Assembly: GCF_030252425.1 (NCBI RefSeq)
Contig: NZ_CP126994.1
Coordinates: 2,108,001 to 2,172,000, forward strand
Length of the DNA stretch: 64,000 nucleotides
Direction of reading: 5' to 3'
DNA from: Acidisoma sp. PAMC 29798
Lineage (GTDB): Bacteria; Pseudomonadota; Alphaproteobacteria; Acetobacterales; Acetobacteraceae
In this document: positions 9,140 to 64,000 of the stretch, piece by piece
How positions within the stretch are numbered: the stretch's first letter is position 1
How the letters are laid out: each line of letters starts with the position of its first letter
The notes under the pieces: model-generated
What the model saw: only the letters and a program-made list of their open reading frames with translations
Databases searched by the model: none
Told to the model about the DNA's origin: nothing
Made by a program: the position numbers and the translations under genes

Positions 9140-10251
9140 CAGCCGGCGGCCATCTGGGCCAAGGCCTGCCGCGCATCGACGAGTGACTTGGCCTGTGCCA
9201 TCCACGGGGTCATCGCGGCCCGCGCCGGATCGGACAAGGTGGAGAGCACACCGAGCGCGCCCGGCAGATCACCGGCGTCGAGCAGCCGCTCGGCATGAGC
9301 CAGCACGCCGGCCGTAGGATCACCGACCAGCACCTGATCGCCCCTGCGCACCACGACGAGGTTCTGCACGCGAAGCCAGACGCGGTGCCAAAATTTTCCG
9401 TCACTTGGCAGCGGTTGGCCGGCGGCATCCGCTGTCTTGGCGGCGGCGGAAAAACTCAGACGCAAGGCGGCTTCGGTCGGCGGCGACACCGTGTCGAACT
9501 TTGCCAGCGCCGGCGGCGCGCCATCGATCGGCCCGAGCGGCATGCCGGCGCGCAAAGCCTCCTGCGCGTGCAGGATCTGCCCCAGATGCGCCGATTGCGC
9601 AGCGAGCTTCGGCAGCCCGCTGGTATCCTTCGTGAGGCCCTGAATCTGGCTCGTCACGGCCGCGACTTGCTGACGCACCGCGCTCATGTCCTGCCGCAAT
9701 GCCTGGCTGTCCTGGCTCTGCTGCTTCGTCAGGCTGTCGAGATGGGTCGAGAGCGCGGACATATCCTGAGCCGAAGGGGCGGATTGGGCCTGCTGCGACT
9801 GGCTGGAAGCGATTTTGTCCAGCCGATCTGACAGCGCCGCCACCTGTTGGGCGAGACCGGTATCGACCGCAGGCGGCGCGACAACAGGCGCGGGTGCGGG
9901 CGCGGTGGGCGTTTGCGTCGCGCTTGCCGCCTGCCACTGTGCGGCGTCCTGCTTTTCCTGACCGTCGATGCCGGCCACGCGCGCCTTCAAGGCATTGAGA
10001 TCGGCGCGTAACGCGGCGACGGCGCCGCTTTGGTCCTGTACCGCAGGCGCCTGGGCGGTCAGCATCTGCTGCTGACGCTCGTAGACATAACCGATCGCGA
10101 CCGCGAGGATGACGAAACCGATCAGGCACAGGATCGGCAGGATAGGCCGGCGCGCCTGCACGGGGGTCACCAGCGCGGGCGGCGTCTCCACGACCGGATC
10201 GCGGACCGGTTCGGTTTCGGGCAAACGGTCCGGGTTGGGCTCATCGCTCAT
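9139..10251 (-). CDS. Mitofilin-like inner-membrane protein (COG4223 type)
   Basis: 370 aa. Residues 1-33 are Pro-rich and cytoplasmic, with one membrane helix at about 35-55 (ILPILCLIGFVILAVAIGYV). A long Gln/Ala/Ser-rich stretch that should form coiled coils follows (about 60-215), then a C-terminal helical domain (from LPKLAAQSAHLGQIL to the end). This is the architecture of alphaproteobacterial mitofilin homologues, which sit between hemD and hemY and are related to the mitochondrial MICOS protein Mic60. It overlaps hemD by 11 nt and hemY by 1 nt. A membrane-shaping role is known for the family but not shown here. Confidence 0.85.
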   Translation of the reverse strand: MSDEPNPDRLPETEPVRDPVVETPPALVTPVQARRPILPILCLIGFVILAVAIGYVYERQQQMLTAQAPAVQDQSGAVAALRADLNALKARVAGIDGQEKQDAAQWQAASATQTPTAPAPAPVVAPPAVDTGLAQQVAALSDRLDKIASSQSQQAQSAPSAQDMSALSTHLDSLTKQQSQDSQALRQDMSAVRQQVAAVTSQIQGLTKDTSGLPKLAAQSAHLGQILHAQEALRAGMPLGPIDGAPPALAKFDTVSPPTEAALRLSFSAAAKTADAAGQPLPSDGKFWHRVWLRVQNLVVVRRGDQVLVGDPTAGVLAHAERLLDAGDLPGALGVLSTLSDPARAAMTPWMAQAKSLVDARQALAQMAAG

Positions 10252-10945
10252 CTATTAGGGCCAATACCGCGTTTTCTGTGGGCGTCATTGCCACATGGAT
10301 ACTCCGCCAGGGCAAGTCCCGCACGGAATCGGCCACGGGGTGGCTGATGGCGGCGAGCCTAAGCGGTCGAAGACCGGCCAGCAGGTCGCCATGCCGCACC
10401 AGCCGATGAAAGCAAAATGCGGTCTCGCGCGAGAAGAGCAAGACCCAACCCGCGTGCGACGACGCCAACATGTCGCGTGCGGGCGCCGGAAGCGCCTCCA
10501 CCGGCTGCGCGGCATAGACCTCTCGTCGCAGGACCGTGAAGCCGCGCCGCGTCAGCAGGCGTTCGAGATGATGCCCCTGCCCGACACCCGAGGCCAGCAG
10601 CAGAGGAGCGCCGTTGGGGGCGAGCGACCGTGCGGCCAGCACGGCGAGCGCCTTGGCGTCACCGTCCGCGCTCGACACCTGCGTGAAGCCATGCGCACGG
10701 GCCGACCCGGCGGTCGCGTCGCCGACGGCAAGCAAAGGACAATGGGCGTAAGCATGGGGAAGCCGAGGGATTGCCTGTCGGCTGGTGACCAGGATCGCCT
10801 GGACGGTATCGGGGGCCGGCAACTCGGCAGCCACGGCATGGATCGTGAGCAGTGGCGCCACGACCGGGTGATAGCCCATAGCGACGAGCTGCGCCGCCGT
10901 GGCGGCAGCGCCGGGCTCGGGCCGCGTGATGAGGACGGGCGTCAG
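10241..10945 (-). CDS. hemD: Uroporphyrinogen-III synthase, probable CTG start
   Basis: Cyclises hydroxymethylbilane to uroporphyrinogen III, the branch point to heme and to the cobalamin genes in this window. The first ATG (10879) would remove the conserved N-terminal strand. Reading upstream in frame gives TPVLITRPEPGAAATAAQLVA, the classic HemD opening, beginning at CTG 10945-10943. That CTG overlaps the hemC stop as CTGA, the same 4-nt geometry as ATGA junctions elsewhere here. No in-frame ATG, GTG or TTG lies just upstream. Length is then 234 aa, normal for HemD. Later blocks (ILVTSRQAIPRL, PLLAVGDATA, GHHLERLL, VLLFSRETAFCF) fit the family. Confidence 0.9.
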   Translation of the reverse strand: MTPVLITRPEPGAAATAAQLVAMGYHPVVAPLLTIHAVAAELPAPDTVQAILVTSRQAIPRLPHAYAHCPLLAVGDATAGSARAHGFTQVSSADGDAKALAVLAARSLAPNGAPLLLASGVGQGHHLERLLTRRGFTVLRREVYAAQPVEALPAPARDMLASSHAGWVLLFSRETAFCFHRLVRHGDLLAGLRPLRLAAISHPVADSVRDLPWRSIHVAMTPTENAVLALIDER

Positions 10946-50238: not shown

Positions 50239-53200
50239 CGTGGCACGAAGACGCTGTTGCGACGAGGCCGCCAGAGGTCGCGCGCCATGGCGGTCCGAAA
50301 CCGCTCCGTCAGCACCGCATGGGCGGCCGGGCTTTCATCACGCAGGAATGCGTCCACCGCGGGTTCCCCGAGCGTCGCGTCGAACAGCATATCGAACTGC
50401 GCATCGAAGCGCGTCGGCAGGGTGGCGGCGAAGCCGGTGAGGCTTTCGGCGCCGCGCACGATCTCCGCGGCCCCGCGATAGCCGTGGCGCATCATGCCGG
50501 CGATCCAGCGCGGATTGGCGGCGCGGGCGCGTACGATGCGGCGCACCTCCTCGGCCACCAGACGCGGCTGGGGAGACTCCGGCTTGCTGGTGTCGAGGTG
50601 ATAGAGGGCCGGCGTGCCGCCGAGCATGGCGGCGGCGGCGGCGAAACCGCCCTCATGCGCCGCATAGTCGGGGCTTTCGAGCAGATCGGTCTCGGCATGA
50701 TCCTGGGTATGGACGAAGCCATCCGCCACCGCGATCCGCGCCGCGAAATCCCCCTCGCCATCGTCCCAGGCCGTGTCCGAACCCGCGAGATAGGACCGCG
50801 CCGCATCTTGCCGTGTGCCATCCAGATCGACCCCGCTGCCATAGGCGCCAGCCGACGGGCCGAAGACGCGGGCGCCGTCCTTGCCCGCCAGCGGGTTCCA
50901 CTCGGCATCCTCGTCCCGCGCGACCACCGCCCGCGCCGCCTGGTCGAACAGCGCGATTTGCGCCGCGAAGGCATCCCGGAACAGGCCGGAAATGCGGAGG
51001 GAGACATCGACGCGCGGACGATCGAGCAAGGCGATCGGCAGCACCTCGAAGCCGCCCACGCGGCTCGATCCACCGTCCCAGAGCGGTTTCACCCCCATCA
51101 GGATCAGGGCGAGGGCGAAATCCTCACCGCCGGTGCGCATGGTGGCACTACCCCAGAGGTCGATCACCAGGGCGCGCGGCCAATCCCCTTGCTCCTGCCG
51201 ATGACGCGCCAGCAGGGCCTTTGCGGCCTTTTCGGCAAGGCCCACGGCCGAGCGCGTCGGGATGGCGCGCGGATCGAGGGTGGTGAGGTTGCGGCCCGTC
51301 GGCAAAACATCGGCGCGGCCCCGGGTCGGCGCGCCGGCGGGACCGGGCGGCACGAAACGCCCATCGAGCGCCGCGAGCAGCGCCGCACCCTCGGCCTCCG
51401 CGCACGCGTCCAACCGCTCGGCCAGATCCGGGCCATCGGTCATTGCGGCTAGCAGCGCATTTCGCTGCGCCGGCGCGGGCGCGACGCCGAAGATATGCAG
51501 CCCATCGCGGATCTGCATGTCCTTCACGTCGCACAGATAGGCGTCGAGCTTGGCAAGCACCGCATCCTCGCCCTCCGTCTCAGGCTTGGCGCCGCTTTCG
51601 GCGAGCAGGCCGGAGGCTTCGGCTTCCACCAGAATCTCCCTTCGCAGGCTCGTCGCCCGACGACGATCGAGCCCGTCGGCGGCGGCAAACTCGTCGATGA
51701 TGCGTTCCAGTTCCGCCGCGCGGCCATGCAGGCCGGCACGTTGCAAGGGCGGTGTGAGATGACCGATGGTGACCGCGCCGAGGCGCCGCTTGGCGGGCGC
51801 CGCCTCCCCCGGATTGTTCACGATGAAGGGGTAGATGATCGGCAGACCGCCGGTCAGCGCCGCCGGCCAACAAGCGGCGGACAGCGCTGCCGACTTGCCC
51901 GGCAGCCATTCCAGCGTGCCATGGGTGCCGAGATGGACCATGGCGTGGATGCCGATGTCGTCGATCAGCCCGCGATAGAAAGCGATATAGGCCTCGGCCG
52001 GCGGGGCCACGGGATCGTGGTATCCCGCCTTGCGATCCACGCCGCCACGATCGGGCTGCACGGCAATGACGATCTTGCCGCAGCGGAGGGTCTCGCCCTT
52101 AGCCAGACGGGCGAGATCGACCGGGCCGGTGTCGTAGCCGGCGTCCTGGAGCCGCCGGAGAATAGCCGTGACGCTGGCGAAGCTGTCGAGACCGACGGCA
52201 TTGCCGATTTCATGACGCGTGGCAGCCGCGCCGGGATAATCGGACAGCACGATGGCGATGCGGCGCTCGGCCGCAGGGGTCGCGGCGAGGCGCGCCCAGC
52301 CGGCCGCGCGGTCGGCGGCCAGCGCTATGCCCGCCTCATGCGGCACCAGCCGCGCAAGGCCCTGGGCATCCCGCTCCTTGAAAGACACCGCCGTCGTCAG
52401 CAGTCGGCCATCGCTCTCGGGCAGCACCACCTGCATGGCGAGATCGGCCTGGGACAGGCCGCGCGATGACAATTCCCACGCCGCTTGCGTGCTACCCGCC
52501 TGAATGAGCTGCAACACGGGCACGCCCGCGCCGATCTCCGCCGCAAACCCGGTGAGATTGAGGACCACGGCCGGCGCCCACTCCGCCAACCGATCGTGCA
52601 GAAACGCGATGGCGGCTGGGTTCTTGAGGCTATCCACGAAGACCGCTTTAGCGCCAAGACCGCGGAGGGCGAGGGCCGCGATCAGTGACTCGATTGTCGC
52701 GGTTTCACCGGCCAGAAGATGCGAGCGGTAGAAAACGATCGCGGCCTCGGATGGTCCTGGGTGGGTGGTGAAAACACCGAAATCAGGCAGCGTTTCCGCG
52801 ACCGGGGGAAGATCCGCCCAGAGCCCCGCCGCATGCGCCGCGCCTCGCAGCATGCGGGCGAAATTCTCGGCCCCGCCTTGCCTCAGGCAGGCGTCGATCG
52901 CGGCACGCGGTTCGGCCGCCATGGTGGAGAGCGCAGCGAGACGCGGATCGTCCGGCCCATCGCCCGGCAAGACCGCCAAGGGAATGCCCTGCGCCGCGCA
53001 GGTCGCGGCAATTTCCTCGGCGCCATAGCGCCAATAGTCGAGGCCGCCGAGCAGCCGCAGCACCACAACGCGCGCCGGTATAACCAGTTGCTCACAGAGC
53101 AGATCCACCGAAAGCGGATGCAGGAAGCGACCGATCCGCTCGATCCGAACGGAGGGAAAGTCCGCCGGAAGTGCCGCCGCTGCGGCCGCCGCAAGATCAC

Positions 53201-53303
53201 TGTCCGAGAAGGACAGAAACAGAATCGGCGCGGGTTCACCGCCCGGCTCTACGGCCGCCTCGCCTTCCTCCAGCCCATGCGTCTCACGGAGGAGGAGATG
53301 CAT
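50235..53303 (-). CDS. cobN: Aerobic cobaltochelatase subunit CobN
   Basis: Large subunit of the ATP-dependent CobNST cobaltochelatase that inserts cobalt into hydrogenobyrinate a,c-diamide. 1,022 aa, shorter than the roughly 1,200-1,280 of well-studied CobN but continuous. Signatures: GLDYWRYGAEEIAATCAAQGIPLAVLPGDG, IHAMVHLGTHGTLEWLPGKSAAL, PIIYPFIVNNPGEA, IGHLTPPLQRAGL, DLWGSATMRTGGEDFALALILMGVKPLWD, and VDVSLRISGLFRDAF. CobS and CobT chelatase subunits are not in the window. Starts 2 nt after cobW. Confidence 0.95.
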   Translation of the reverse strand: MHLLLRETHGLEEGEAAVEPGGEPAPILFLSFSDSDLAAAAAAALPADFPSVRIERIGRFLHPLSVDLLCEQLVIPARVVVLRLLGGLDYWRYGAEEIAATCAAQGIPLAVLPGDGPDDPRLAALSTMAAEPRAAIDACLRQGGAENFARMLRGAAHAAGLWADLPPVAETLPDFGVFTTHPGPSEAAIVFYRSHLLAGETATIESLIAALALRGLGAKAVFVDSLKNPAAIAFLHDRLAEWAPAVVLNLTGFAAEIGAGVPVLQLIQAGSTQAAWELSSRGLSQADLAMQVVLPESDGRLLTTAVSFKERDAQGLARLVPHEAGIALAADRAAGWARLAATPAAERRIAIVLSDYPGAAATRHEIGNAVGLDSFASVTAILRRLQDAGYDTGPVDLARLAKGETLRCGKIVIAVQPDRGGVDRKAGYHDPVAPPAEAYIAFYRGLIDDIGIHAMVHLGTHGTLEWLPGKSAALSAACWPAALTGGLPIIYPFIVNNPGEAAPAKRRLGAVTIGHLTPPLQRAGLHGRAAELERIIDEFAAADGLDRRRATSLRREILVEAEASGLLAESGAKPETEGEDAVLAKLDAYLCDVKDMQIRDGLHIFGVAPAPAQRNALLAAMTDGPDLAERLDACAEAEGAALLAALDGRFVPPGPAGAPTRGRADVLPTGRNLTTLDPRAIPTRSAVGLAEKAAKALLARHRQEQGDWPRALVIDLWGSATMRTGGEDFALALILMGVKPLWDGGSSRVGGFEVLPIALLDRPRVDVSLRISGLFRDAFAAQIALFDQAARAVVARDEDAEWNPLAGKDGARVFGPSAGAYGSGVDLDGTRQDAARSYLAGSDTAWDDGEGDFAARIAVADGFVHTQDHAETDLLESPDYAAHEGGFAAAAAMLGGTPALYHLDTSKPESPQPRLVAEEVRRIVRARAANPRWIAGMMRHGYRGAAEIVRGAESLTGFAATLPTRFDAQFDMLFDATLGEPAVDAFLRDESPAAHAVLTERFRTAMARDLWRPRRNSVFVPR

Positions 53304-53305
53304 GG

Positions 53306-54337
53306 CTAGCCCAGGATGATCCGCTCGATCGACGCGCGATCAAGGCCGGTGCGGCCGATGACCACGATATGCCCGCCGCGCGGCTCGTCGGCCTTCCAGG
53401 CGCGGTCATATTCATGGCGGAAGCGGCTGCCGACGCCTTGAATGACCAGGCGCAGCGGTTTGCCCAGAACGCTCGCGAAGCCCTTCATGCGCAGCACATC
53501 ATGCGCCTCGGCGGCTGCGCGAAGACGGGCAACCAGCGGCTCGGGCGCCGCCTGCTCCGGCACATCCACCACGAAACTCTCCCAATCGTCATGCTCATGT
53601 TCGCCGTCCACGGCATCGTGGTGAGAGGGTCGGGACGCCAGATCGTCCTCCGCGCGGGCATCCAGGCCGAGCAGCACCGCGAGGTCGATTTTACCCTCAT
53701 GCGCCGGCATCACCTTCACGGCGCGCGGCAGGGCGGCGCCGATCTCGGCCGAGACGCGCGCGAGGTCGGTCCCGTCCATCAGATCGGTCTTGTTGAGCAG
53801 CACGAGATCCGCCGCGCCAAGCTGGTCCTCATAGACTTCGGCCAAGGGATTATCATGGTCGAGCGATGGGTCCGCCGCCATCTGGCGGGCTACTTCCTCC
53901 GGGTCGTCGGCGAAGCGGCCGGCCGCCACGGCGGGACCGTCGACCACGGCGATGACGCCATCGACCGTGACACGCGCGCGGATCGATGGCCAGGAGAAGG
54001 CCTTCAAGAGCGGCTTCGGCAGCGCGAGTCCCGACGTCTCGATCACGATATGATCGGGCGGGTTCGGGCGATCCAGCAAGGCCTCCATCGCCGGCAGGAA
54101 TTCATCCGCCACGGTGCAGCACAGGCAGCCATTCGACAGCTCGACGATGGTATCCTCGTCACAGCCGGCGATGCCGCAGCCTTCCAGCAGCGCGGCATCG
54201 ATTCCGAGGGAGCCGAATTCATTGACGATGACGGCGATGCGCCGACCTTGGGCATTTTGAAGCATATGCCGAACGAGCGTTGTTTTCCCGGCGCCGAGAA
54301 AGCCGGTGATTATGGTGGCGGGAATGCGGGCGCTCAT
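53306..54337 (-). CDS. cobW: CobW-family GTPase/metallochaperone
   Basis: G3E-family P-loop GTPase thought to deliver cobalt to CobN. ATG 54337 (MSARIPATIITGFLGAGKTTLVRHML) overlaps the DUF1636 stop by 4 nt; 343 aa. Walker A GFLGAGKTT, metal-binding CxCC in ELSNGCLCCTVAD, guanine site NKTD, a His/Asp/Glu-rich insert HHDAVDGEHEHDDWE at about 245-260 and the CobW_C domain ending RGGHIVVIGR. Position between the DUF1636 and cobN genes under a cobalamin riboswitch supports cobalt rather than zinc. Confidence 0.95.
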   Translation of the reverse strand: MSARIPATIITGFLGAGKTTLVRHMLQNAQGRRIAVIVNEFGSLGIDAALLEGCGIAGCDEDTIVELSNGCLCCTVADEFLPAMEALLDRPNPPDHIVIETSGLALPKPLLKAFSWPSIRARVTVDGVIAVVDGPAVAAGRFADDPEEVARQMAADPSLDHDNPLAEVYEDQLGAADLVLLNKTDLMDGTDLARVSAEIGAALPRAVKVMPAHEGKIDLAVLLGLDARAEDDLASRPSHHDAVDGEHEHDDWESFVVDVPEQAAPEPLVARLRAAAEAHDVLRMKGFASVLGKPLRLVIQGVGSRFRHEYDRAWKADEPRGGHIVVIGRTGLDRASIERIILG

Positions 54338-54708
54338 GCGGCGGCTCCTAACGGGGGAATGCGGCCGATGACGACGTCCTTGAGGCTTGCGGGACGGCGG
54401 GAGGGCAGCACCGACCCGCTGCCGGAGGCCGCATAGGTGCGGGCATAGGCGATGAGGTCTTCGGCGTGATCGGGCGAGAGGCGACCGAGAAGATAACCCC
54501 ATTTGCCTGGCGCGGTGGCGGCGACGGAACACCCCTGGCCGCAATGCGACAGGCAGGTGACGGGTTGCAGGGCGAAGGGCTCCTCCGCCGTCATCAGGCC
54601 CGCGATACGATCATGCAGACGCTGGCCGGGACGCGGCTCATCGGGATAGCCGCAGGTCACGCATACATGCAGGGTCTGGATCACGATTTCAGAGGACGCC
54701 ACATCCAA
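54334..54708 (-). CDS. DUF1636 metal-binding protein (thioredoxin-like ferredoxin fold)
   Basis: 124 aa. Cys pattern: HVCVTCGYPDEPRPGQRL and then VTCLSHCGQGCSVAATAPGKWGYLLGRL. Four or five conserved Cys in a thioredoxin-like 2Fe-2S ferredoxin arrangement are typical of DUF1636. Members are regularly next to cobW/cobN, so a cobalt-handling or electron-transfer role in chelation is a reasonable inference. First gene after the riboswitch, about 125 nt downstream of the B12 box. Confidence 0.85.
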   Translation of the reverse strand: MDVASSEIVIQTLHVCVTCGYPDEPRPGQRLHDRIAGLMTAEEPFALQPVTCLSHCGQGCSVAATAPGKWGYLLGRLSPDHAEDLIAYARTYAASGSGSVLPSRRPASLKDVVIGRIPPLGAAA

Positions 54709-54829
54709 CTCCGATCATGCGCCCCAAACGCCGGGCGGAAAACGGGGATGCCGCCGCAGGCACGGGCCCACGGCGTGAAGCGGAGGATTCCCACCGAGGC
54801 ACCCCGCCCGGTCGGAACTTTTGGTCGTG

Positions 54830-55010
54830 CGATGGCAGGTCTCCTGGCTCGCGGATCGAACGCGCCCGATCGTCCTTCCCAGGCCCATGAGGCCCAGTGG
54901 AAAATGACCGGATGCTTTCCGCTTACAGTTGCGGGGGCAGCCGCGGCATTGGGGGTTGAGCCCCGCACCGCATTCCCTTTTCATCCACCGACACGCGTTG
55001 GTGGAACCAT
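54830..55010 (-). promoter_or_regulatory. Cobalamin riboswitch (minus strand)
   Basis: Read on the minus strand the order is complete: a leading hairpin (arms at 54985-54990 and 54999-55004), GGGAATGCGGTG, the core GCTGCCCCCGCAACTGTAAG inside 54919-54947, CCACTGG (54900-54894), GGGAAGG, and the B12 box GCCAGGAGACCTGCC (54848-54834). These are the conserved elements of AdoCbl/MeCbl aptamers. It leads into DUF1636-cobW-cobN-cobG-cobH-cobI. The roughly 125 nt up to the first ATG would be the expression platform, likely hiding the ribosome-binding site when cobalamin binds. The divergent cobU gene is not downstream of it. Confidence 0.96.
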
Positions 55011-55035
55011 CGGGGATGATCTAGAAGCCGGAGCC

Positions 55036-55548
55036 ATGGCCAGTCAATTGGATATAACATTGATCTTAGGCGGTGCCCGTTCCGGCAAGAGCCGCTATGG
55101 CGAGGGGCTGATCACCGCCCTGCCCGGCCCCTGGACCTATATTGCGACGGCCGAGGCCTGGGACGCGGAGATGGCGGCGCGCATCGCCCTGCATCGCACG
55201 CGCCGGGACGCGCCGTGGCGGACGGTGGAGGCGCCGCTGGCGCTGGCGTCGGCGCTGATAGACGCGGCCGAGACTCCGGTGCTGGTTGATTGCCTGACGC
55301 TGTGGCTGACCAACCTCATGCTCGCCGAGCGGGATCTCGCGGCGGAGACCGAGGCTCTGCTAGAGGCTTTGGCGGCCCGCACCCCTGCCACAGTGCTGAT
55401 CGCCAATGAGGTGGGGCTCGGCATCGTGCCGGAGCATCGGCTCGGCCGGGACTTTCGGGACGCGGCGGGCGTGTTGCATCAGCAGTTGGCAGCGCGGGCC
55501 GATCGGGTACTGTTCATGGTGGCGGGCCTGCCGATGGTGGTGAAATGA
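55036..55548 (+). CDS. cobU: Adenosylcobinamide kinase / guanylyltransferase
   Basis: Bifunctional: phosphorylates adenosylcobinamide and transfers GMP to it (CobP in aerobic naming). ATG 55036 (MASQLDITLILGGARSGKSRYGE) gives 170 aa. P-loop GGARSGKS, TYIATAEAWDAEMAARIALHRTRRD with the guanylylated His, WRTVEAPLAL, VLVDCLTLWLTNLML, IANEVGLGIVPEHRLGRDFRDAAG. It diverges from the riboswitch and overlaps cobO by 4 nt. Its promoter must lie within or beside the riboswitch-coding DNA. Confidence 0.96.
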   Translation: MASQLDITLILGGARSGKSRYGEGLITALPGPWTYIATAEAWDAEMAARIALHRTRRDAPWRTVEAPLALASALIDAAETPVLVDCLTLWLTNLMLAERDLAAETEALLEALAARTPATVLIANEVGLGIVPEHRLGRDFRDAAGVLHQQLAARADRVLFMVAGLPMVVK

Positions 55549-56153
55549 GTGACGAGACCGAGGCCGACCGCTGGCGCGAAAAGATGGTCCGTCGCAAGGC
55601 CGTGCAGGACGCAGAGGTCGCGGGCAAGACCATCGAGAAGGGTCTGCTCATGGTCAATACCGGTCCTGGCAAGGGCAAGACCACGGCGGCGATGGGGCTG
55701 GCGCTGCGCATGCTGGGCCGCGACCGGCCGGTCGCCATCGTGCAATTCATCAAGGGCGCCTGGAGTACCGGGGAACGAGCCGGCTTCTCCCGCTTCGGCG
55801 ATCTGCTGACCTGGCACAGCATGGGTGAGGGTTTCACCTGGGAGACGCAGGACAAGGCGCGCGATACCGCGGCCTGCCGCCGCGCCTGGGACGAGGCACT
55901 GGTTCAGATGGCGCGGCCGGATGTGGCGCTGGTGGTGCTGGATGAGCTGTGCATCGCATTACGCTACGACTATCTCGCGGTCGATGAAGTTGTGGCCGCT
56001 TTGGTTGCGCGGCGGCCGGGATTGCATGTGATCGTGACGGGGCGCAATGCGCCGGCGGGTTTGGTCGAGGCGGCGGATCTCGTGACCGAGATGCAGGCGA
56101 CCAAGCACCACTTCAAGGCAGGCGTGAAGGCGCAGGAAGGGATCGAGTTCTAG
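55545..56153 (+). CDS. cobO: Cob(I)yrinic acid a,c-diamide adenosyltransferase
   Basis: Attaches the 5'-deoxyadenosyl upper ligand to cobalt(I) corrinoids (CobA/BtuR type). 202 aa. Walker A LLMVNTGPGKGKTTAAMGLALR, VAIVQFIKGAWSTGERAGF, WETQDKARDTAACRRAW, VVLDELCIALRYDYL, HVIVTGRNAPAGLVEAADLVTEM and HHFKAGVKAQEGIEF. Its TAG stop coincides with the first bases of a REP-like element (TAGGGTGGTT). Coupled to cobU. Confidence 0.97.
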   Translation: MSDETEADRWREKMVRRKAVQDAEVAGKTIEKGLLMVNTGPGKGKTTAAMGLALRMLGRDRPVAIVQFIKGAWSTGERAGFSRFGDLLTWHSMGEGFTWETQDKARDTAACRRAWDEALVQMARPDVALVVLDELCIALRYDYLAVDEVVAALVARRPGLHVIVTGRNAPAGLVEAADLVTEMQATKHHFKAGVKAQEGIEF

Positions 56154-56235
56154 GGTGGTTGGTGGATGACGCTGCGCCTATCCACCCTACGAAAGTTGAA
56201 GTCTCGTAGGGCGGAAAAGCGAAGCGTATTCCGCC
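56151..56235. repeat. Inverted pair of REP-like palindromes after cobO (locus 4)
   Basis: 56161-56190 reads on the minus strand as GTAG, GGTGGAT, AG, GCGCAGC, GTC, ATCCACC. 56206-56235 reads on the plus strand as GTAG, GGCGGAA, AA, GCGAAGC, GTA, TTCCGCC, identical to the unit between cobI and cobJ. A partial third head (TAGGGTGGTT) begins with the cobO stop codon. Located between convergent genes. Confidence 0.85.
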
Positions 56236-56251
56236 ATCACGATCATCGCTC

Positions 56252-57070
56252 TCACGGCTTGATCGCCTTCAGCGAGTAAGACAGCGGCAGCCAAGGCTTG
56301 TCGGGCAATCGATAAAGCCCACCCTCGGCTTCGACCATGCAGCCGAACTGCTTCCAGGCCAGGGTGTCGTGCTCGTGCAACATCGTTAGTCGCAAGCCGG
56401 CATCCAGCAGCGCCTGTACAACATCCGCGACCGGATGCATGAACTGGTGCGTGCGGATGTTTGAGATTCGTGCGACGGGATTGGCATAGTCTCGCGCGTC
56501 GTCCACCACGATCTCTCCTTGATGAAAATAGGGCGCGAACCAGCCGGGCATGCCATGCGTTCCGGGCACGTCATCATCAAAGATCAGCGCCGCCGGATGC
56601 ATATCCGCAAAGTAGACCTCTCCCCCCACCCGCAACAGGCTGGCAACGACCTCGGCCCAGCCTTGAATGTCCGGAAGCCAGCCGATCGTGCCCCACGTGG
56701 TGAAGACGCGATCGAATTCACCCTCCAACGCGGCCCTCGCCTCGTAGATGTCCGATTGCACGAAATGCGCCTCGATCCCGATTTCCGCGGCTAGACTTCG
56801 CGCCGCCGCGATGGCGGGCGCGGAGAAATCCAGCCCCGTCACCTGGGCGCCCTTCTGCGCCAAGGCCAGCGTATCGACGCCAAAATGGCATTGCAGATGC
56901 AACAGCCGCAGGCCCGCCACGGGGCCAAGCTCCCGCTCCTCTATCGCATGCAGGATGTAGTTGCCCTGGCGCAGCAAATGCGTGTCATAATCGGACTCCG
57001 GCGCCATGTGGATGGCGACGCGCTCGTCCCAATTTGCGCGATTAAGACGCCGCCATTCAGGTTCAGACAT
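56252..57070 (-). CDS. Class I SAM-dependent methyltransferase
   Basis: 272 aa from ATG 57070, chosen over 57073 because the AGGAG Shine-Dalgarno is then about 7 nt away. Motif I LRLLHLQCHFGVDTLALAQKGAQVTGLDFSAPAI, with LQCHFG in place of the usual GxGxG, a variant seen in a recognised subfamily. Then AHFVQSDIYEARAALEGEFDRVFTTWGTIGWLPDIQGWAEVVASLLRVGGEVYFADMHP. C-terminal half rich in His/Trp/Phe. Target unknown. Divergent from a second methyltransferase gene at 57132, with 61 bp between. Confidence 0.85.
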   Translation of the reverse strand: MSEPEWRRLNRANWDERVAIHMAPESDYDTHLLRQGNYILHAIEERELGPVAGLRLLHLQCHFGVDTLALAQKGAQVTGLDFSAPAIAAARSLAAEIGIEAHFVQSDIYEARAALEGEFDRVFTTWGTIGWLPDIQGWAEVVASLLRVGGEVYFADMHPAALIFDDDVPGTHGMPGWFAPYFHQGEIVVDDARDYANPVARISNIRTHQFMHPVADVVQALLDAGLRLTMLHEHDTLAWKQFGCMVEAEGGLYRLPDKPWLPLSYSLKAIKP

Positions 57071-57588
57071 CATCAGGCTCCTTCGCAGATCTTTATTGCT
57101 TATCGCACCGTTCCCAGGCCGGGAGAACGACATGAACGATCCCCACCAAACCACCGAACTCGCGGACCGGATCATCCCTCACTACGAGCGTCATGGTCGC
57201 GATTGGGAGGCAGATCGCCGCGCACTGCGATGGAGCGACAAACCCTGGCACGACCGCTTCATCGCGGCTCTGCCAAAAGGTGGAACCGTGCTCGACCTCG
57301 GATGTGGCGGCGGTGATCCGGTGGCGCTGAACATGGAGGCCGGTGGACTTCGCGTCACCGGGGTCGATGCCTCGCCAACACTCACTGCCCTCTGCCGCGA
57401 ACGCATGCCGGACCAGGAATGGATCGTCGCCGATATGCGCGCACTCTCGCTCGGTCGTCTCTTCGACGGCGTCCTCGCCTGGGACAGCTTCTTCCACCTG
57501 AAGCCGGATGATCAGCGCCGCATGTTCGCCATCTTTGCCGACCACGCGGCGCCGTCCGCTTTCCTCATGTTCAATACAGGACATGCCG

Positions 57589-58668
57589 CTAGTGGATTGA
57601 ATCTAACGCTTGGTGCCCACGCCTGACCGCGGCGATGATCTTTTCTGGGTCTTTGGTCCAATGGAAGGGGTGCGGATCGGCGTTGGTATCGGCGACGAAG
57701 CGGTTGATCGCAGCCTGCAGTGAGACGAGGGAGTGGAACACGCCACGTTTGAGGCGCCGTTTAGCGAGCTTGGCAAAAAAGCCCTCGACGGCATTGAGCC
57801 ACGAGGCCGAGGTCGGCGTGAAATGGAAGGTCCAGCGTGGATGGCGCTCCAGCCAAGCGATAACCTTCGGGTGCTTGTGGGTGGCGTAATTATCCATGAT
57901 GGCATGGACAAGTTTCCCCGCAGGGACCTCCGCTTCGACAGCATTGAGGAAACGGATGAACTCCTGGTGCCGATGGTGCTGCATGCATCGGCCGATCACG
58001 CCGCCCTCCAAAACGTTCAAGGCCGCAAACAACGTGGTCGTACCGTTCCGGATGTAATCGTGTGTCATGGTGCCGCAGCGCCCCTTCTTCAGAGGCAACC
58101 CCGGCTGGGTGCGGTCGAGCGCTTGGATTTGGCTCTTTTCGTCGACCGAGAGGACGACGGCGTGGGCGGGCGGGTCGACGTAGAGACCGACGATGTCGCG
58201 AAGCTTGGCGGCAAACTGCGGATCGTTGGAGAGCTTGAATTGGCGGAGCCGATGCGGTTGCAGACCGTGGGTGCGCCAGATGCGTTGCGTGGCGCTCAGA
58301 CTGATCTTGGCGGTCTTGGCCATGGCTCGCCCGGTCCAATGCGTCACCTCGCCGGGCGGGGTCGTCAGCGTCAGCGCCACAACCCGGTCAGCGACATTCG
58401 ATCCCAGTGCTGGGACGCGCGAAGGCCGGGTCTTGTCCCGCAGGAGCCCGTCCACGCCAGCCTGCATGAACCGCTCCTGCCAGCGCCACACCGCCGTTTT
58501 GGCCTTGCCTGTTTGCCGCATGATCTCGGCCGTGCCGTGACCCGCTGCTGTCAGAAGGACGATCTGAGCCCGCCAAACATGTTTCTGTGGGCTATTGCGG
58601 TCTGTCACGATCAACTGAAGCCGGGCCTGGTCAGCTGGGTTAACTTCGACGACGATGCCTGGGCGCAT
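57589..58668 (-). CDS. IS630-family transposase
   Basis: 359 aa. N-terminal helix-turn-helix region (HVWRAQIVLLTAAGHGTAEIMRQTGKAKTAVWRWQERF) and a DDE catalytic domain: Asp in VVLSVDEKSQIQALDRTQPG, Asp in AIMDNYATHKHP, Glu in SASWLNAVEGFFAKLAKRRLKRG. This DDE set and spacing are those of IS630/Tc1-mariner enzymes. The reading frame is intact, so it may be active. The TAG stop is formed by the TA target duplication plus a flanking host base. Confidence 0.95.
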   Translation of the reverse strand: MRPGIVVEVNPADQARLQLIVTDRNSPQKHVWRAQIVLLTAAGHGTAEIMRQTGKAKTAVWRWQERFMQAGVDGLLRDKTRPSRVPALGSNVADRVVALTLTTPPGEVTHWTGRAMAKTAKISLSATQRIWRTHGLQPHRLRQFKLSNDPQFAAKLRDIVGLYVDPPAHAVVLSVDEKSQIQALDRTQPGLPLKKGRCGTMTHDYIRNGTTTLFAALNVLEGGVIGRCMQHHRHQEFIRFLNAVEAEVPAGKLVHAIMDNYATHKHPKVIAWLERHPRWTFHFTPTSASWLNAVEGFFAKLAKRRLKRGVFHSLVSLQAAINRFVADTNADPHPFHWTKDPEKIIAAVRRGHQALDSIH

Positions 58669-58738
58669 CGTGCCAGACTCGCACGTCCCAGCCGCCGTTG
58701 GAATCTCTAAACGGACTCTTCCGTCAGGTTCTATCCAC
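57592..58738 (-). mobile_element. IS630-family insertion sequence with TA target duplication
   Basis: 1,147 bp bounded by TA dinucleotides (57590-57591 and 58739-58740), the IS630/Tc1-type target duplication. Terminal inverted repeats: GTGGATTGAATCTAACG at the left (57592-57608) and, read inward from the right, GTGGATAGAACCTGACG (58738-58722), 14 of 17 identical. It holds one transposase gene on the minus strand. The donor site reconstructs exactly. No other copy is in the window. Confidence 0.93.
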
Positions 58739-58906
58739 TAGCGAATCCATCGGCGCCTATAAAGGCGATCCGCTCTATCATGCGAGCCTGGACCCGACCG
58801 AATACGAAGCGTTGCTGTCCCGCTCGGGCTTCACCGTCGTTGCTCATGTGGTCAAGGACCCGCAGGCGGGCGGACGAACCGCATGGCTCGCCCAGCGCGC
58901 GCCGCG

Positions 58907-59986
58907 TTACCCCGGCGGTTGATTGCCCAACCGCGCGGCAGCGGCGATCAACGCCTCGGCCGCATGAGGATCGCTCGCGTATGAGGTCACCAACCGAATG
59001 ACCGTGTTGTCACCCTCCACCCGGCTCGACCAGCGATAGAAACCGAAACCCTCCGCCAGCAGGGCCGCCACCATCCCCTCAGGCATGATCACGAACAGCT
59101 CATTGGCTTGCACGGGATGTAGAAGGCTCACGCCTGGGATTGCGGAAAGCCCCTCCGCCAATCGCGTCGCGAGTCCGTTGGCCGCACGGGCGTTACGCAG
59201 CCACAAATCCTGCTCCAGATAGGCCACGAGCTGGGCGCTCATGTAGCGCATCTTCGACCACAGATGCGCGCCACGCTTGCGCCGCTGCTCGAAGCCGCGG
59301 GCCAGCGCCGGATCGAAAAACACGACCGCCTCGGCCGCCATGGCGCCGTTCTTGGTGGCCCCGAAGGACAAGACCTTCACGCCGGCTTTCCAGGTCATTT
59401 CTGCGGGCGAACAACCGAGATGCACCAGGGCATTGGCGAAACGCGCACCATCCATATGCAGCGGCAACCGATGCGCCGCTGCCGCAGCACCAAGCGCTGA
59501 CAGCTCATCGCGGCTATAGACCGCGCCCCACTCGGTGGATTGCGTGATGCTGATGGCGGCGGGTTGCATGAAATGAACCCCGAGCGCGGCAGCATGGGCC
59601 AAAGGCTCCGCGATTTGAGCGGCCGCAATGCGACCGTCCGGCGTTGGCAAACAAACCAGCTTCGCGCCACCCGTGAAGAACTCCGGCGCGCCGCATTCGT
59701 CGGTGCTGATATGCGCATCCTCGGCACAGAGCACGGCACCGTACGGGGGCACGAGTACCGACAGAGCGAGGGCATTCGCCGCAGTGCCGGTCGCGACCGG
59801 GAAGGCCACCAGATCGGTCTCGAAAATGTCGCGCAGCTTGGCGGTCACCTGCGCCGTCAAGGCATCTGCGCCGTAGGAGCCGACATTGCCGCTATTGGCC
59901 GCCGCGATGGCCGCCATGATTTCGGGTGAGATGGGCGCGACATTGTCGCTGCCGAAGTTCCAGGCACCCTTAGTTCCGTCCGCCAC
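58907..59986 (-). CDS. ltaE: Low-specificity L-threonine aldolase
   Basis: PLP-dependent retro-aldol cleavage of threonine or allo-threonine to glycine and acetaldehyde. 359 aa, beta-eliminating lyase fold. FGSDNVAPISPEIMAAIAAAN, YGADALTAQVTAKLRDIF, FPVATGTAANALALSVL, AEDAHISTDECGAPEFFTGG, LPLHMDGARFANALVHLG, and the PLP Lys in VLSFGATKNGAMAAEAVVFF. Its end overlaps the 3' piece of the broken methyltransferase gene by 16 nt. Confidence 0.94.
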   Translation of the reverse strand: MADGTKGAWNFGSDNVAPISPEIMAAIAAANSGNVGSYGADALTAQVTAKLRDIFETDLVAFPVATGTAANALALSVLVPPYGAVLCAEDAHISTDECGAPEFFTGGAKLVCLPTPDGRIAAAQIAEPLAHAAALGVHFMQPAAISITQSTEWGAVYSRDELSALGAAAAAHRLPLHMDGARFANALVHLGCSPAEMTWKAGVKVLSFGATKNGAMAAEAVVFFDPALARGFEQRRKRGAHLWSKMRYMSAQLVAYLEQDLWLRNARAANGLATRLAEGLSAIPGVSLLHPVQANELFVIMPEGMVAALLAEGFGFYRWSSRVEGDNTVIRLVTSYASDPHAAEALIAAAARLGNQPPG

Positions 59987-60112
59987 GCCATACCTCCATC
60001 AGACCAGGGGCGAGTTTCGCACGGGGGCTGCCATTGCCCAAACTCAGCATGACGCCTGCCGGATTCCGTGCGATTTTCCGTCGCAGAGCGCACAGCGCCG
60101 GGAGACACGACC

Positions 60113-61237
60113 ATGAAGAAAAAACAGATCCACCTTGGCCTTGTGGGCTCGGGCTTCATGGGGCGCACCCATGCCTTAGGCTTCCGCAGTGTCGGCGGCG
60201 TCTTCGATCTTCCGGTCGAACCGGTGCTGGAACTGCTGGCCGACGCCACCGAAACCCTCGCCCGCGACGCCGCGCAGGCACTCGGCTTCGCGCGTTCGGT
60301 GGGTGACTGGCGCGCTTTGGTCGCGGACCCGCTGGTTGATGTCGTGGACATCACCGCCCCCAACGCCCTGCACAAGCCCATCGCCCTCGCGGCGCTGGCG
60401 GCGGGCAAGCCGGTCTATTGCGAAAAGCCGCTGGCGCCGACCGCGCCGGAGGCTTTGGAGATGGTGCAGGCGGCCGAGCGCGCCGGCGTCGTGACCCAAG
60501 TCGGTTTCAATTACATCGGCAATCCGATGCTGATCCTCGCCAAACAGATGATCGAGAGCGGGGAACTCGGCCAGATCTGGTCCTTTCGCGGCATTCATGC
60601 CGAGGGCTTCATGATCGACCGCCAGACGCCCTGGACCTGGCGCCTCGACCCCTCCGGCGGGGCCGGCGCCATTGCCGATATCGGCAGCCATATCATCGGC
60701 ATGGCGCGCTTTCTGCTGGGACCGATCGCCTCGCTCTGTGCCGATGTGGAAACGGTGATCGATCGCCGGCCCATGGCCGGCAAGCCCGAGGAAATCCGGG
60801 CCGTGGAAGTCGATGATGCCGCAAGGCTGCTGGTGCGCTTCGGCAGCGGCTGCCGGGGCACGATCGAAACGAGCTGGCTCTCCTCCGGGCGCAAGATGCA
60901 GCTCGATTTCGAAGTGGTCGGTGAAAAGGGTGCGCTCGTCTTCACGCAAGAACGGTTCAACGAGCTGCGCTACTACAAGGTCGAGAAGGATTCGTCGCGC
61001 AACGGTTTCCGCACCATCATGGCGGGGCCGGAACATCCGCCGTATGGCGCCTTCTGCGTCGCCGGCGGCCATCAGATCGGCTTCAACGACCTCAAGACGA
61101 TCGAAATTCGCGGCTTTCTGGATGCGCTCGCTGGCGGCCCTCGCCCCTTCGCGGATTTCCGCGAAGCCTATGAGGTGCAGCGCGTGATCGCTGGCGCGCT
61201 GCTGTCGTCACGCGAACAACGCTGGGTGACGCTGTAA
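60113..61237 (+). CDS. Gfo/Idh/MocA-family oxidoreductase
   Basis: NAD(P)-dependent dehydrogenase, probably on a sugar or cyclitol. ATG 60113 (MKKKQIHLGLVGSGFMGRTHALGF), 374 aa; a GTG at 60068 would add 15 unlike residues. GLVGSGFMGRTHA, VDITAPNALHKPIALAALAAGKPVYCEKPLAPT with the EKP motif, GAIADIGSHIIGMARFLLG with catalytic Asp/His, and a long C-terminal domain (RPFADFREAYEVQRVI). Intact and distinct from the YdgJ-like relative at 16.3 kb. Appears monocistronic, divergent from threonine aldolase. Confidence 0.93.
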   Translation: MKKKQIHLGLVGSGFMGRTHALGFRSVGGVFDLPVEPVLELLADATETLARDAAQALGFARSVGDWRALVADPLVDVVDITAPNALHKPIALAALAAGKPVYCEKPLAPTAPEALEMVQAAERAGVVTQVGFNYIGNPMLILAKQMIESGELGQIWSFRGIHAEGFMIDRQTPWTWRLDPSGGAGAIADIGSHIIGMARFLLGPIASLCADVETVIDRRPMAGKPEEIRAVEVDDAARLLVRFGSGCRGTIETSWLSSGRKMQLDFEVVGEKGALVFTQERFNELRYYKVEKDSSRNGFRTIMAGPEHPPYGAFCVAGGHQIGFNDLKTIEIRGFLDALAGGPRPFADFREAYEVQRVIAGALLSSREQRWVTL

Positions 61238-61251
61238 GATCGACTCTTCTA

Positions 61252-62073
61252 TTACGTGGCGTCGAGAACCAGAACGGGGCAGCGCTCCCCCAACGCATAG
61301 GACAGGCGATGGGTGTGCAGAATGCGGAAGCCGGGCCGCAGGAGATCCGCGAGTTCGCTCTCCTTGGGGAAGGTGTAGCGCGTCGCGACATCACGGTAGA
61401 CATCGATGGTCCGCAATTCCGCTTCGGACCAGCCGAGCCGCGCGGCCAGATCGCCAGGATCGGCGATGGCCGATGAGCACGCATCCCAAACATCCGCCAA
61501 GCGAACGCCCTGCTCCATATCTCCGTGCAACGCCATGGCGAGGCGCCATTTGAAGATATGCGGATTGGGGACCTTGCCCGCATGCAGATCGCGAAACACC
61601 GCCTCGCAGGGTTCGGCCTCCTCCGGCCGCACGAAAATCCGCATGATGCCGTGTCCGCTTGGCTTCAGCACGCGGGCCAGTTCTTGCGCGACGCTGTGCC
61701 ACCCTGCCCGCCCCTCGCACATATTCAAGGCGCCATCGGCCAGCACCAGCCGCATTGATCCCGATGGTAGCGGAAGCGTCGCCCAATCGCCCTGAACAGC
61801 CCAAGCTGATTTGGGCGCGGACGGCGGCCGCCACAATGCCGCGATCATCACCGGTGACCGATCAACCGCGATCAGCCGCGCGTGATCGGGCCATCGCATC
61901 GCGACGATCTCGGGCGTCACGCCCAGCAGAAGGTGGCCGAGGCCGTCATCCGGTCCGCCGAGTGTTCGAGCCAGATGCTTAAACAAACGAATGTCGTCCG
62001 GGCCTGGCCGCAGCGGCTGACCCACCAGGGACCATTGCGCGGCGTGCCTGTCCCAATGACCAGCGGCTGTCAT
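61252..62073 (-). CDS. SAM-dependent methyltransferase coupled to an ATP-grasp-like gene
   Basis: 273 aa from ATG 62073 (MTAAGHWDRHAAQWSLVGQPLRPG), which overlaps the upstream stop by 4 nt. Motif I region HLLLGVTPEIVAMRWPDHARLIAVDRSPVMIAAL, a variant (LGVTPE) found in a methyltransferase subfamily, then GDWATLPLPSGSMRLVLADGALNM and VLKPSGHGIMRIFVRPEE. The last 100 residues are unassigned. The pairing with an ATP-grasp-like enzyme suggests both modify the same unknown substrate. Confidence 0.78.
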   Translation of the reverse strand: MTAAGHWDRHAAQWSLVGQPLRPGPDDIRLFKHLARTLGGPDDGLGHLLLGVTPEIVAMRWPDHARLIAVDRSPVMIAALWRPPSAPKSAWAVQGDWATLPLPSGSMRLVLADGALNMCEGRAGWHSVAQELARVLKPSGHGIMRIFVRPEEAEPCEAVFRDLHAGKVPNPHIFKWRLAMALHGDMEQGVRLADVWDACSSAIADPGDLAARLGWSEAELRTIDVYRDVATRYTFPKESELADLLRPGFRILHTHRLSYALGERCPVLVLDAT

Positions 62074-63002
62074 CGGCGCGCGAACAGGCGCCGCGCCCAA
62101 TGGGTCAATGCGGCAGCCTTTCCCCGCTCTGCTTGGGCGAGTTGGCGCAGCAGGCGATGAACCTCCGTGTTAAACCACGTCTTCGATGGCATCTGGATGG
62201 CATCGTAGCGATCCGGCGGATAAAGAAACGTCGGGTTCGTATTGATCTCCCAAACCTGCACCTTGCCATCCACAAGCCCATAGTCCATGCGGCCGAACTG
62301 AATCCCGCCGAGATCGAAGGCCGCGCGAACATCGGCTTCATGCGGGTTGCTGCGCTGAAACGCACGCTCCTCGTCTACAAATTGCGCTGACACCAGGCTG
62401 GGTCCCTTCACTTCCCAGCTCTGCGCAATCATGACGTGATGAGCCAGAATGGTATCACCGATGCGAAATGCCGCGTATTTGCGGAACAATCCATCATCGG
62501 AGACATCGGCGAATTCCACCACGAGCAGGGTTGTGGGGTCATGGCCGGCGTCAATGAGACGAGCGATCTCCGCCGTCAGGTGTTGCGGTGTAGCGATCAG
62601 GCCGGTGAGGGATCCGGCATGCTCGGTGCTGTGTCGGATGAAAACCGGAAAGCGCCAGGACGCGACCGGTTCCTCCACGCCGCCGACGCGAAACTGGTTG
62701 CGTCCGGTCGCGTGCAGCCTCGTCAGCAAGTGCCGACGACCCAAAGAATGGCCGGGCCGGTTGAGCAGAATGCTGCGACCCCGTGCGGAGAGCGTCTCCC
62801 AGACCTTGATCGCTGCGGGCAACAGGCTGCCGGGAAGCCGATCCACATCGGCGAAGATACAGGCGCCATCGGGCAAGCGCTCGATATCGCTCAGGCTTTC
62901 ATAGGGTGTAATGGCAACAAGGTCTTGAAGATCAGGCGCCCATTCATTGAGGAAATTGGTCATCGGATGAAGATTGTCTTGCATCGCAAAGAACCTGATC
63001 AA
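62070..63002 (-). CDS. ATP-grasp-like protein of unknown substrate
   Basis: 310 aa. A TTG at 63002 with GGAGGAGGGA 2-12 nt before it looks the best start; ATG 62984 lacks a good ribosome site. The C-terminal half resembles an ATP-grasp ligase: FPVFIRHSTEHAGSLTGLI, TTLLVVEFADVSDDGLFRKYAAFRIGDTILAHHVMIAQSWEVKG, then GRMDYGLVDGKVQVWEINTNPTF with the Mg/ATP acidic-Asn pair (E-x-N-x-N-P). N-terminal region about 1-110 unassigned. First gene of the pair with the methyltransferase at 61.2 kb. Confidence 0.6.
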   Translation of the reverse strand: MIRFFAMQDNLHPMTNFLNEWAPDLQDLVAITPYESLSDIERLPDGACIFADVDRLPGSLLPAAIKVWETLSARGRSILLNRPGHSLGRRHLLTRLHATGRNQFRVGGVEEPVASWRFPVFIRHSTEHAGSLTGLIATPQHLTAEIARLIDAGHDPTTLLVVEFADVSDDGLFRKYAAFRIGDTILAHHVMIAQSWEVKGPSLVSAQFVDEERAFQRSNPHEADVRAAFDLGGIQFGRMDYGLVDGKVQVWEINTNPTFLYPPDRYDAIQMPSKTWFNTEVHRLLRQLAQAERGKAAALTHWARRLFARR

Positions 63003-63032
63003 TCCCTCCTCCCCATGCCAGAGCCAGAACGT

Positions 63033-63078
63033 AAAAAGCCGGACGGCCCCGGAGCTAATAGCTCCAGAACCGTCCGGC
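63033..63078 (-). terminator. Intrinsic terminator after the sugar-binding-protein gene
   Basis: On the minus strand GCCGGACGG (63078-63070) pairs with CCGTCCGGC (63046-63038), followed directly by TTTTT (63037-63033). A second hairpin, GGAGCT/AGCTCC around ATT, sits in the loop (63065-63051). It begins 31 nt after the binding-protein stop and isolates that operon from the ATP-grasp-like gene. Confidence 0.92.
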
Positions 63079-63108
63079 CCTCAATGGCTGCGCAGAAAGT
63101 CGTGACGC

Positions 63109-64000
63109 TTACTGAGCGTGGGTCGGATCCCAGCCCTTGTAGCTGCCGATATTGTCAATGGTGATCAGGGTCGGGTTGAGCAACACGATCTTGGACGGCG
63201 GCATCTTGCCGTTCACGATATCGACCGCATAGGCATAGGCCTGGGCGGCCATGCCATAGGGGTCCTGCGCGGCAGTCGCCTTGATCATCCCGTCCTTGTT
63301 CTGGATTTCAGGCACCACGTCCGGCGCGCCATCGACGGAGGTAATGAAGAAATCGTGGCGGTTCTGCTGCTTGGCGGCGAGTTCAAGGCCGATCGCCGTC
63401 GGGTCATTGATGGCGAAAGCCGCATCGATCTTGGGAAAGCGCGTCAGCAGGCTCTGGCCCGAGGCAAAACCACCGTCGCGCGAACCCATGGCGTTCTGGC
63501 TGTCGGAGAGGATAGTGATGCCAGGTTCAGCCTTCAGAACCGCCTCGCAGCCCTTCACGCGATCAACGATGGAGGAGACCTGCGGCCCGTTGATGATGAT
63601 GACATTGCCCTTCTTGCCGGGCAGATGATCGACGATGTACTGGCAGGAGATAGAGCCGGCCTTGACGTTATCGGTCATGACCGTGACATCGGCGCCCTGG
63701 GCCGCGACGTCGAAAGCGGCGGAGACGATGCCGGCGGCCTTGGCCTTCTTCAGCGCGGGCAGAATCGCCACCGGATCGGCGGCGTTGATCATGATGATGC
63801 TGGCGCCGGCCGCGATGAAGTTGTCGATCTGGGTGAACTGCTTGTTGAGGTCATAGTCCGAGGATACGGCGACGATATGGGCGTCCGGCGTAATTTCCTT
63901 CGCCTTGGCCTCGATGCCCTTATCGGTGGCGGCGAAATAGGGGTTACCGAGTGAACCGACGGTGATACCGACGGTCTTGACGTCGGCCGCCATCGCCGCG
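63109..64000 (-). CDS. Periplasmic sugar-binding protein, ribose type (5' end beyond window)
   Basis: The reverse frame runs from the window edge to a stop at 63109, at least 297 codons. The first residues visible (AAMAADVKTVGITVGSLGNPYFAATDKGIEAKAKE) look like the end of a signal peptide and the mature start, so only the signal sequence is probably missing. Blocks: QIDNFIAAGASIIMINAADPVAI, KGNVIIINGPQVSSIVDRVKGCEAVLKAEPGI, AFAINDPTAIGLELAAKQQNRHDFFITSVDGAPDVV. Type I binding fold, RbsB-like. The other transporter genes would lie further right. Ends in a strong terminator. Confidence 0.93.
   Translation of the reverse strand, partial: AAMAADVKTVGITVGSLGNPYFAATDKGIEAKAKEITPDAHIVAVSSDYDLNKQFTQIDNFIAAGASIIMINAADPVAILPALKKAKAAGIVSAAFDVAAQGADVTVMTDNVKAGSISCQYIVDHLPGKKGNVIIINGPQVSSIVDRVKGCEAVLKAEPGITILSDSQNAMGSRDGGFASGQSLLTRFPKIDAAFAINDPTAIGLELAAKQQNRHDFFITSVDGAPDVVPEIQNKDGMIKATAAQDPYGMAAQAYAYAVDIVNGKMPPSKIVLLNPTLITIDNIGSYKGWDPTHAQ

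Follow-up and report, generated by a model that had tools for sequence, protein, structure and literature searches.

An overlapping ATP-grasp and methyltransferase gene pair in Acidisoma, and the varied carboxylate-activating neighbours of its methyltransferase

What might two overlapping genes of Acidisoma sp. PAMC 29798 make together, and do they act together at all? The pair lies in a stretch of 64,000 nucleotides of contig NZ_CP126994.1 (positions 2,108,001 to 2,172,000; the window), where both open reading frames were confirmed on the minus strand. Gene 1 (62070-63002, minus strand) encodes, probably from a TTG start, a RimK-like ATP-grasp enzyme of 310 aa that belongs to an unnamed family, and gene 2 (61252-62073, minus strand) a class I SAM-dependent methyltransferase of 273 aa, counted from its ATG. 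The initial annotation described an ATGA overlap between them, a ribosome-binding site in front of gene 1 and a separate, terminator-bounded operon beyond, all of which are present in the sequence: the stop and start codons overlap at 62070-62073 (minus strand) and may couple translation of the two genes, the Shine-Dalgarno-like GGGGAGGAGGGA precedes the TTG at 63003-63014 (minus strand), and a terminator-like hairpin of 20 pairs, found by a hairpin scan at 63036-63080 (minus strand), closes the upstream operon and stands between it and the pair. That operon resembles, by eye, genes of iol-type inositol catabolism; on the 3' side, a Gfo/Idh/MocA oxidoreductase gene on the opposite strand ends 14 bases before gene 2. 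Within 61000-63400, terminator-like sites on both strands number 5 against 1.7 expected from shuffles, and no sigma-70 consensus promoter was found.

The gene starts call for some care. A codon-usage gene caller picked both genes at full length in window positions 53001-64000; on the overlapping stretch L132 it began gene 1 at the ATG at 62985 and, of gene 2, recovered no more than the C-terminal portion. Because the caller disagrees between the two stretches, the starts rest on alignment: the TTG of gene 1 matches the start position of relatives, with the rows of one of the alignments behind it beginning at the match start. For gene 2, the mechanical list of reading frames opens at a TTG at 62100, as against the ATG that gives 61252-62073.

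The initial annotation recognised a possible ATP-grasp nucleotide and magnesium motif, VWEINTNP, in the first protein. The profile searches returned no usable sequence match: gene 1 has nothing above cut-off in Pfam, no NCBIfam family at E <= 1 (the RimK family profile included), and in the PDB two chance matches by sequence (E 0.82 and 0.89) and none at E <= 0.1 for a 51-row profile. A sub-threshold Pfam match to a type III effector model (E 0.1) was set aside as unusable. It is the predicted structure that bears the ATP-grasp proposal out. The AlphaFold model, built from 51 aligned sequences, is confident (pLDDT 93.3, pTM 0.89), and Foldseek returned 360 matches at E <= 1e-3, of which the 50 listed are all ATP-grasp enzymes, among them RimK, D-Ala/VanA-type ligases, LysX and ArgX. 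Realignment gave Z scores of 17.2 for RimK (259 residues, 3.9 A), 16.3 for LysX, 16.1 for ArgX, 15.2 for PPIP5K2, 14.4 for the graspetide ligase PsnB and about 13-14 for ITPK, gaps under 1 being ties; the RimK/LysX/ArgX fold is shared across residues 1-294.

The candidate metal-ligand residues are conserved as well. The Mg/ATP-binding segment, G237-RMD240...WE252-I-N254-TNP257 (62232-62294, minus strand), is assigned from invariance in 51/51 aligned sequences, which holds for R123, E163, R238, D240, E252, N254 and P257; K175 and K199 are kept in 50/51. By analogy with RimK, we take D240, E252 and N254 to be the metal ligands. Judged by its model, gene 1 is a complete ATP-grasp enzyme. The fold alone cannot tell a ligase from an ATP-grasp kinase, and ligase activity is a prediction.

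Gene 2 was read in the initial annotation as a SAM methyltransferase with the variant motif LGVTPE, and profile evidence agrees. Its only Pfam matches at E <= 1 are Methyltransf_11 (34.1 bits, cut-off 21.2) and Methyltransf_25, which leaves no match to the isoaspartyl (PCMT/PIMT) type at that threshold, and a profile of ten sequences matches structures of class I methyltransferases in the PDB (best 2.9e-9). At motif I, LGVTPE (61909-61926, minus strand) replaces the usual GxGxG; LGVTPELA aligns with the SAM-loop motif IGVGTGLA of 8ys9, and LGVT is invariant in 10/10 aligned sequences. From these sequence features we infer that the protein binds SAM. A structural model from a two-sequence alignment failed (pLDDT 36.8).

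The exact combination of gene-1 family and this methyltransferase is rare, being found in the window and in one other genome, at locus L029. There the two proteins are 47% and 46% identical to those of the window, and both gene order and ATGA overlap (8921-8924) are repeated; an apparent fused ATP-grasp/methyltransferase reading frame in L029 proved to be two overlapping genes. The co-occurrence raised by the initial annotation is upheld by L029, the combination being known from two genomes only. Between L029 and window positions 58000-64000 (extended by L132 8001-12500) only the pair is conserved, and the matches, consisting of the pair and other-frame shadows, include no small ORF or transporter common to both loci, the kind of conserved neighbour that the initial annotation had in mind. 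The methyltransferase was not found at L028, where the same organism carries a second copy of gene 1, and it adjoins the gene-1 family in only one of 84 other gene-1-family loci examined. L028 has, at 8914-10731 and on the strand opposite to its gene-1 copy, a second, distant ATP-grasp-like gene beside a different methyltransferase (Methyltransf_11 1.2e-11), and methyltransferases of that other type lie directly 3' of gene 1 at L077 and L092.

The gene-1 family itself is widespread, a genome scan having returned 196 relatives across many phyla, of which 80 loci were kept. Six near-identical Mesorhizobium loci were left out before neighbours were counted, and three loci had no called gene 1; a neighbour on the same strand lies no more than 100 bases away at 51 of 75 loci and is lacking at 24 of 75. 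The scan took 59 of the 61 neighbours (leaving out L003:2-1426 and L085:2039-2413), and the kinds most in evidence were GNAT acetyltransferases (9), SnoaL-like proteins (6), AMP-binding enzymes (5) and methyltransferases (3). Thirteen gene-1-family loci carry, by sequence clustering, an aKG-HExxH-type enzyme, with the HExxH motif in 13/13, and six such proteins from these or sister loci, checked by profile, all matched TIGR04267. In a tree of 74 rows, drawn after ten loci judged near-copies were left out and with incompletely settled bootstrap, gene 1 of the window clusters with the L028 and L029 sequences (100/98), apart from the HExxH clade, which holds the gene-1 paralogue of its own genome.

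That paralogue belongs to a RiPP-like locus outside the window (L131 6540-8876; G000:C1, about 737.5-739.9 kb), where it is accompanied by an aKG-HExxH-type enzyme matching TIGR04267 and by a short peptide whose leader is KLLGF-like. Peptides related to it, with a leader of about LDxSKLLGF and a Lys/Gly-rich core that often holds LGAKVGGK-like repeats and is poor in Asp and Glu by eye, occur at L003, L004, L005, L089 (two), L095, L099, L103, L105 and L107 (two); L091 yielded none, and neither did the HExxH loci L057, L068, L073, L078 and L097. The six peptides tested had no NCBIfam match and no significant Pfam match. Elsewhere in the window, at 57006-58922, a transposase gene (DDE_3 and HTH domains; 57589-58668, minus strand) appears to split another methyltransferase gene, its N-terminal part lying before 57626 and its C-terminal part, by eye, likely at 58698-58922.

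Gene 2 is rare. This methyltransferase occurs in 7/398 genomes of the phylum and 5/385 of the class, each count including the genome of the window, and in the order, among 299 genomes including it, in that genome alone. At nine methyltransferase loci, the surrounding 1.5 kb or so yielded no homologue of gene 1; another carboxylate-activating enzyme, that of the genus treated below among them, adjoins the methyltransferase in 8 of these 9, the ninth (L121, genome G677) being a methyltransferase fragment whose partner is absent. Outside that genus, a carboxylate-activating enzyme is the neighbour in 21 of 22 genomes, and in the 22nd (L156) the locus runs off the contig end. The 21 partners are of the gene-1 family (2), cyanophycin-synthetase-like ATP-grasp enzymes (4) and PaaK-like/AMP-binding enzymes (15). 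The PaaK-like cases span four genera of two families and the cyanophycin-type cases two genera, and since partners are drawn from few genera the count of independent cases is much lower than 21; in two of the 21 (G1214 and G1215) the methyltransferase looks damaged or partial. Partner identity at later-added loci was assigned by tblastn similarity to partners already profiled, and the queries were paired methyltransferases, a design that would miss distant unpaired relatives. Around four weak, unrelated methyltransferase matches that served as controls (L109-L112, about 1.5 kb per side), no ligase-like neighbour was seen by eye. The methyltransferase is the anchor of the system, and its link with a carboxylate-activating neighbour is well supported. 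The coupling proposed in the initial annotation holds for the methyltransferase and a carboxylate-activating enzyme, but the kind of activator differs.

In one genus (g378), the partner is of a fourth kind, an ATP-grasp-like protein of 284 aa whose profile alignment to gene 1 has an hhalign probability of 81 (E 1.2e-5). The methyltransferase was found in 63/119 genomes of this genus and the ATP-grasp-like gene likewise in 63/119. With fragments set aside, both genes are present in the same 60/119 genomes and neither is intact in 59/119, among which remnants of one gene only persist in four genomes and of both genes in one; methyltransferase fragments (G677, G908, G973) and ATP-grasp fragments (G588, G908, G916) were treated as absent, and G965 (both genes broken) and G950 (methyltransferase with one stop) as present. 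In view of linked loss and shared ancestry, the corresponding Fisher value, 2e-35, cannot be taken as a measure of independent events; one deletion can remove linked neighbours, so the test makes such events look more numerous than they are. The two genes are 66-182 nt apart in 65 of the 66 methyltransferase rows compared (of 69, those from G677, from G973 and from the second G965 piece being left out), and the 66th, the G908 fragment, abuts an ATP-grasp fragment outside the compared list. Five second copies all occur as pairs, and the damaged methyltransferase copies of G677 and G973 have lost the partner. ATP-grasp copies without an adjoining methyltransferase are G896:C10, which is split, and 30-33% relatives in G897, G917 and G983.

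ATP-driven activation of a carboxylate, followed by its joining to a nucleophile, is a step common to these partner families, with ATP-grasp enzymes forming an acyl phosphate and PaaK-type enzymes an acyl adenylate. We propose, with moderate confidence, that the two genes form a cassette for the production or tailoring of one small metabolite, in which one enzyme adds a methyl group and the other links a carboxylate to a nucleophile. Gene 1 would use ATP and magnesium to activate the carboxylate as an acyl phosphate and would then join it to an amine, or possibly an alcohol or thiol, while gene 2 would move a methyl group from SAM onto the substrate or the product. In this organism the two genes presumably act in one pathway, and the direction of the reaction and the small size of the substrate are likewise given here as presumed. 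Across genomes, methylation would be the constant step and activation of the acid would be interchangeable among unrelated or distantly related enzymes, the simplest view being a single pathway in which the methylated intermediate stays the same and the ligase can be exchanged. More tentatively, at a little short of even confidence, we suggest that these loci represent an undescribed biosynthetic module of Pseudomonadota, centred on one conserved LGVTPE methyltransferase. Its obligatory carboxylate activation would have passed between three or more kinds of enzyme (lineages of RimK-like ATP-grasp enzymes, ATP-grasp enzymes resembling cyanophycin synthetase, and PaaK-like adenylating ligases), and non-homologous ligases would thereby make one and the same methylated, ligated metabolite.

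Could the substrate be a ribosomal peptide instead? Gene 1 would then join or cap a peptide encoded elsewhere and the methyltransferase would decorate it, much as the initial annotation allowed when it placed such pairs in peptide and small-molecule modification. Members of the gene-1 family are indeed found in RiPP-like loci that also encode an aKG-HExxH-type peptide beta-hydroxylase and a KLLGF-type short peptide, the own-genome paralogue included, the structural match to PsnB fits such a role, and passages of PMC8939145 report Branch 2 ATP-grasp loci with a UbiE-like methyltransferase. Against this, the window holds no KLLGF-type peptide, the only genomic copy found adjoins the paralogue, gene 1 sits with L028 and L029 in the tree away from the peptide clade, and elsewhere the partners of the methyltransferase are PaaK-type and cyanophycin-synthetase-type enzymes. 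We consider the peptide reading unlikely. The initial annotation saw no obvious precursor nearby; no peptide of the one precursor family tested lies in the window and no small ORF is common to L029, though a peptide of another kind may serve the pair.

The structural matches invite two further readings. With RimK at their top, gene 1 might act on some protein of the cell, attaching an amino acid as RimK does on ribosomal protein S6, and the methyltransferase would modify that protein too, yet its identity to RimK is only 13-15%, no RimK family profile matches it, and the patchy occurrence of the methyltransferase (in the 5/385 genomes of the class) ill suits a core protein target, which makes this reading improbable. 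PPIP5K2 and ITPK, together with the iol-like look of the genes upstream, would suit an ATP-grasp inositol-phosphate kinase serving that operon; this we hold to be very improbable, given that the terminator-like hairpin divides the operon from the pair, that inspection by eye revealed no iol genes beside L029 or the methyltransferase loci, and that we know of no role for a methyltransferase in the inositol pathway. Equally slight is the chance that the genes are mere neighbours without joint function, as their meeting in just one of the other gene-1-family loci might suggest, for L029 repeats gene order and overlap and the methyltransferase has ligase partners in other genomes. The two-gene cassette for a small metabolite remains our preferred reading. 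A widespread ATP-grasp family without a sequence match in Pfam, NCBIfam or the PDB gains a structural identity and a handle on its chemistry. The recurrence of the methyltransferase beside carboxylate-activating enzymes whose folds differ leads us to expect a shared product. In the searches made of openly licensed papers, we recognised no description of the gene-1 family or of the pair.

Among known systems, the RimK, LysX and ArgX amino-acid ligases share the fold of gene 1 and differ from it by the low identity and the missing family profile match given above; we take the D..E-x-N..P metal segment to be the same as in RimK, and presumably the invariant Arg123 stands where RimK has Lys. In the mycosporine-like amino acid pathway, the O-methyltransferase MysB is followed by the ATP-grasp enzyme MysC. 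The likeness lies in a small-molecule methyltransferase followed by an ATP-grasp ligase; unlike mycosporine clusters, the surroundings of the window pair and of L029 show no cyclase gene of the valiolone-synthase type recognisable by eye. Graspetide clusters, as described in passages of PMC13001092 and PMC8939145, also bring ATP-grasp and methyltransferase genes into one locus, often with an isoaspartyl-type O-methyltransferase. Here, unlike in those clusters, no precursor was recognised near the pair (one precursor family tested, L029 compared), and gene 2 has no match to the isoaspartyl type. Finally, the PaaK-type partners match the family of the AMP-dependent ligase DVU_1553 (NF045666, best 4.8e-37), and the best NCBIfam match of gene 2 is the family of DVU_1556 (NF045667, weak, 1.1e-4), all of these matches being far below curated cut-offs. 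NF045666 was the best family for the PaaK-type partners L122, L124 and L126, and Desulfovibrio may have the same pairing.
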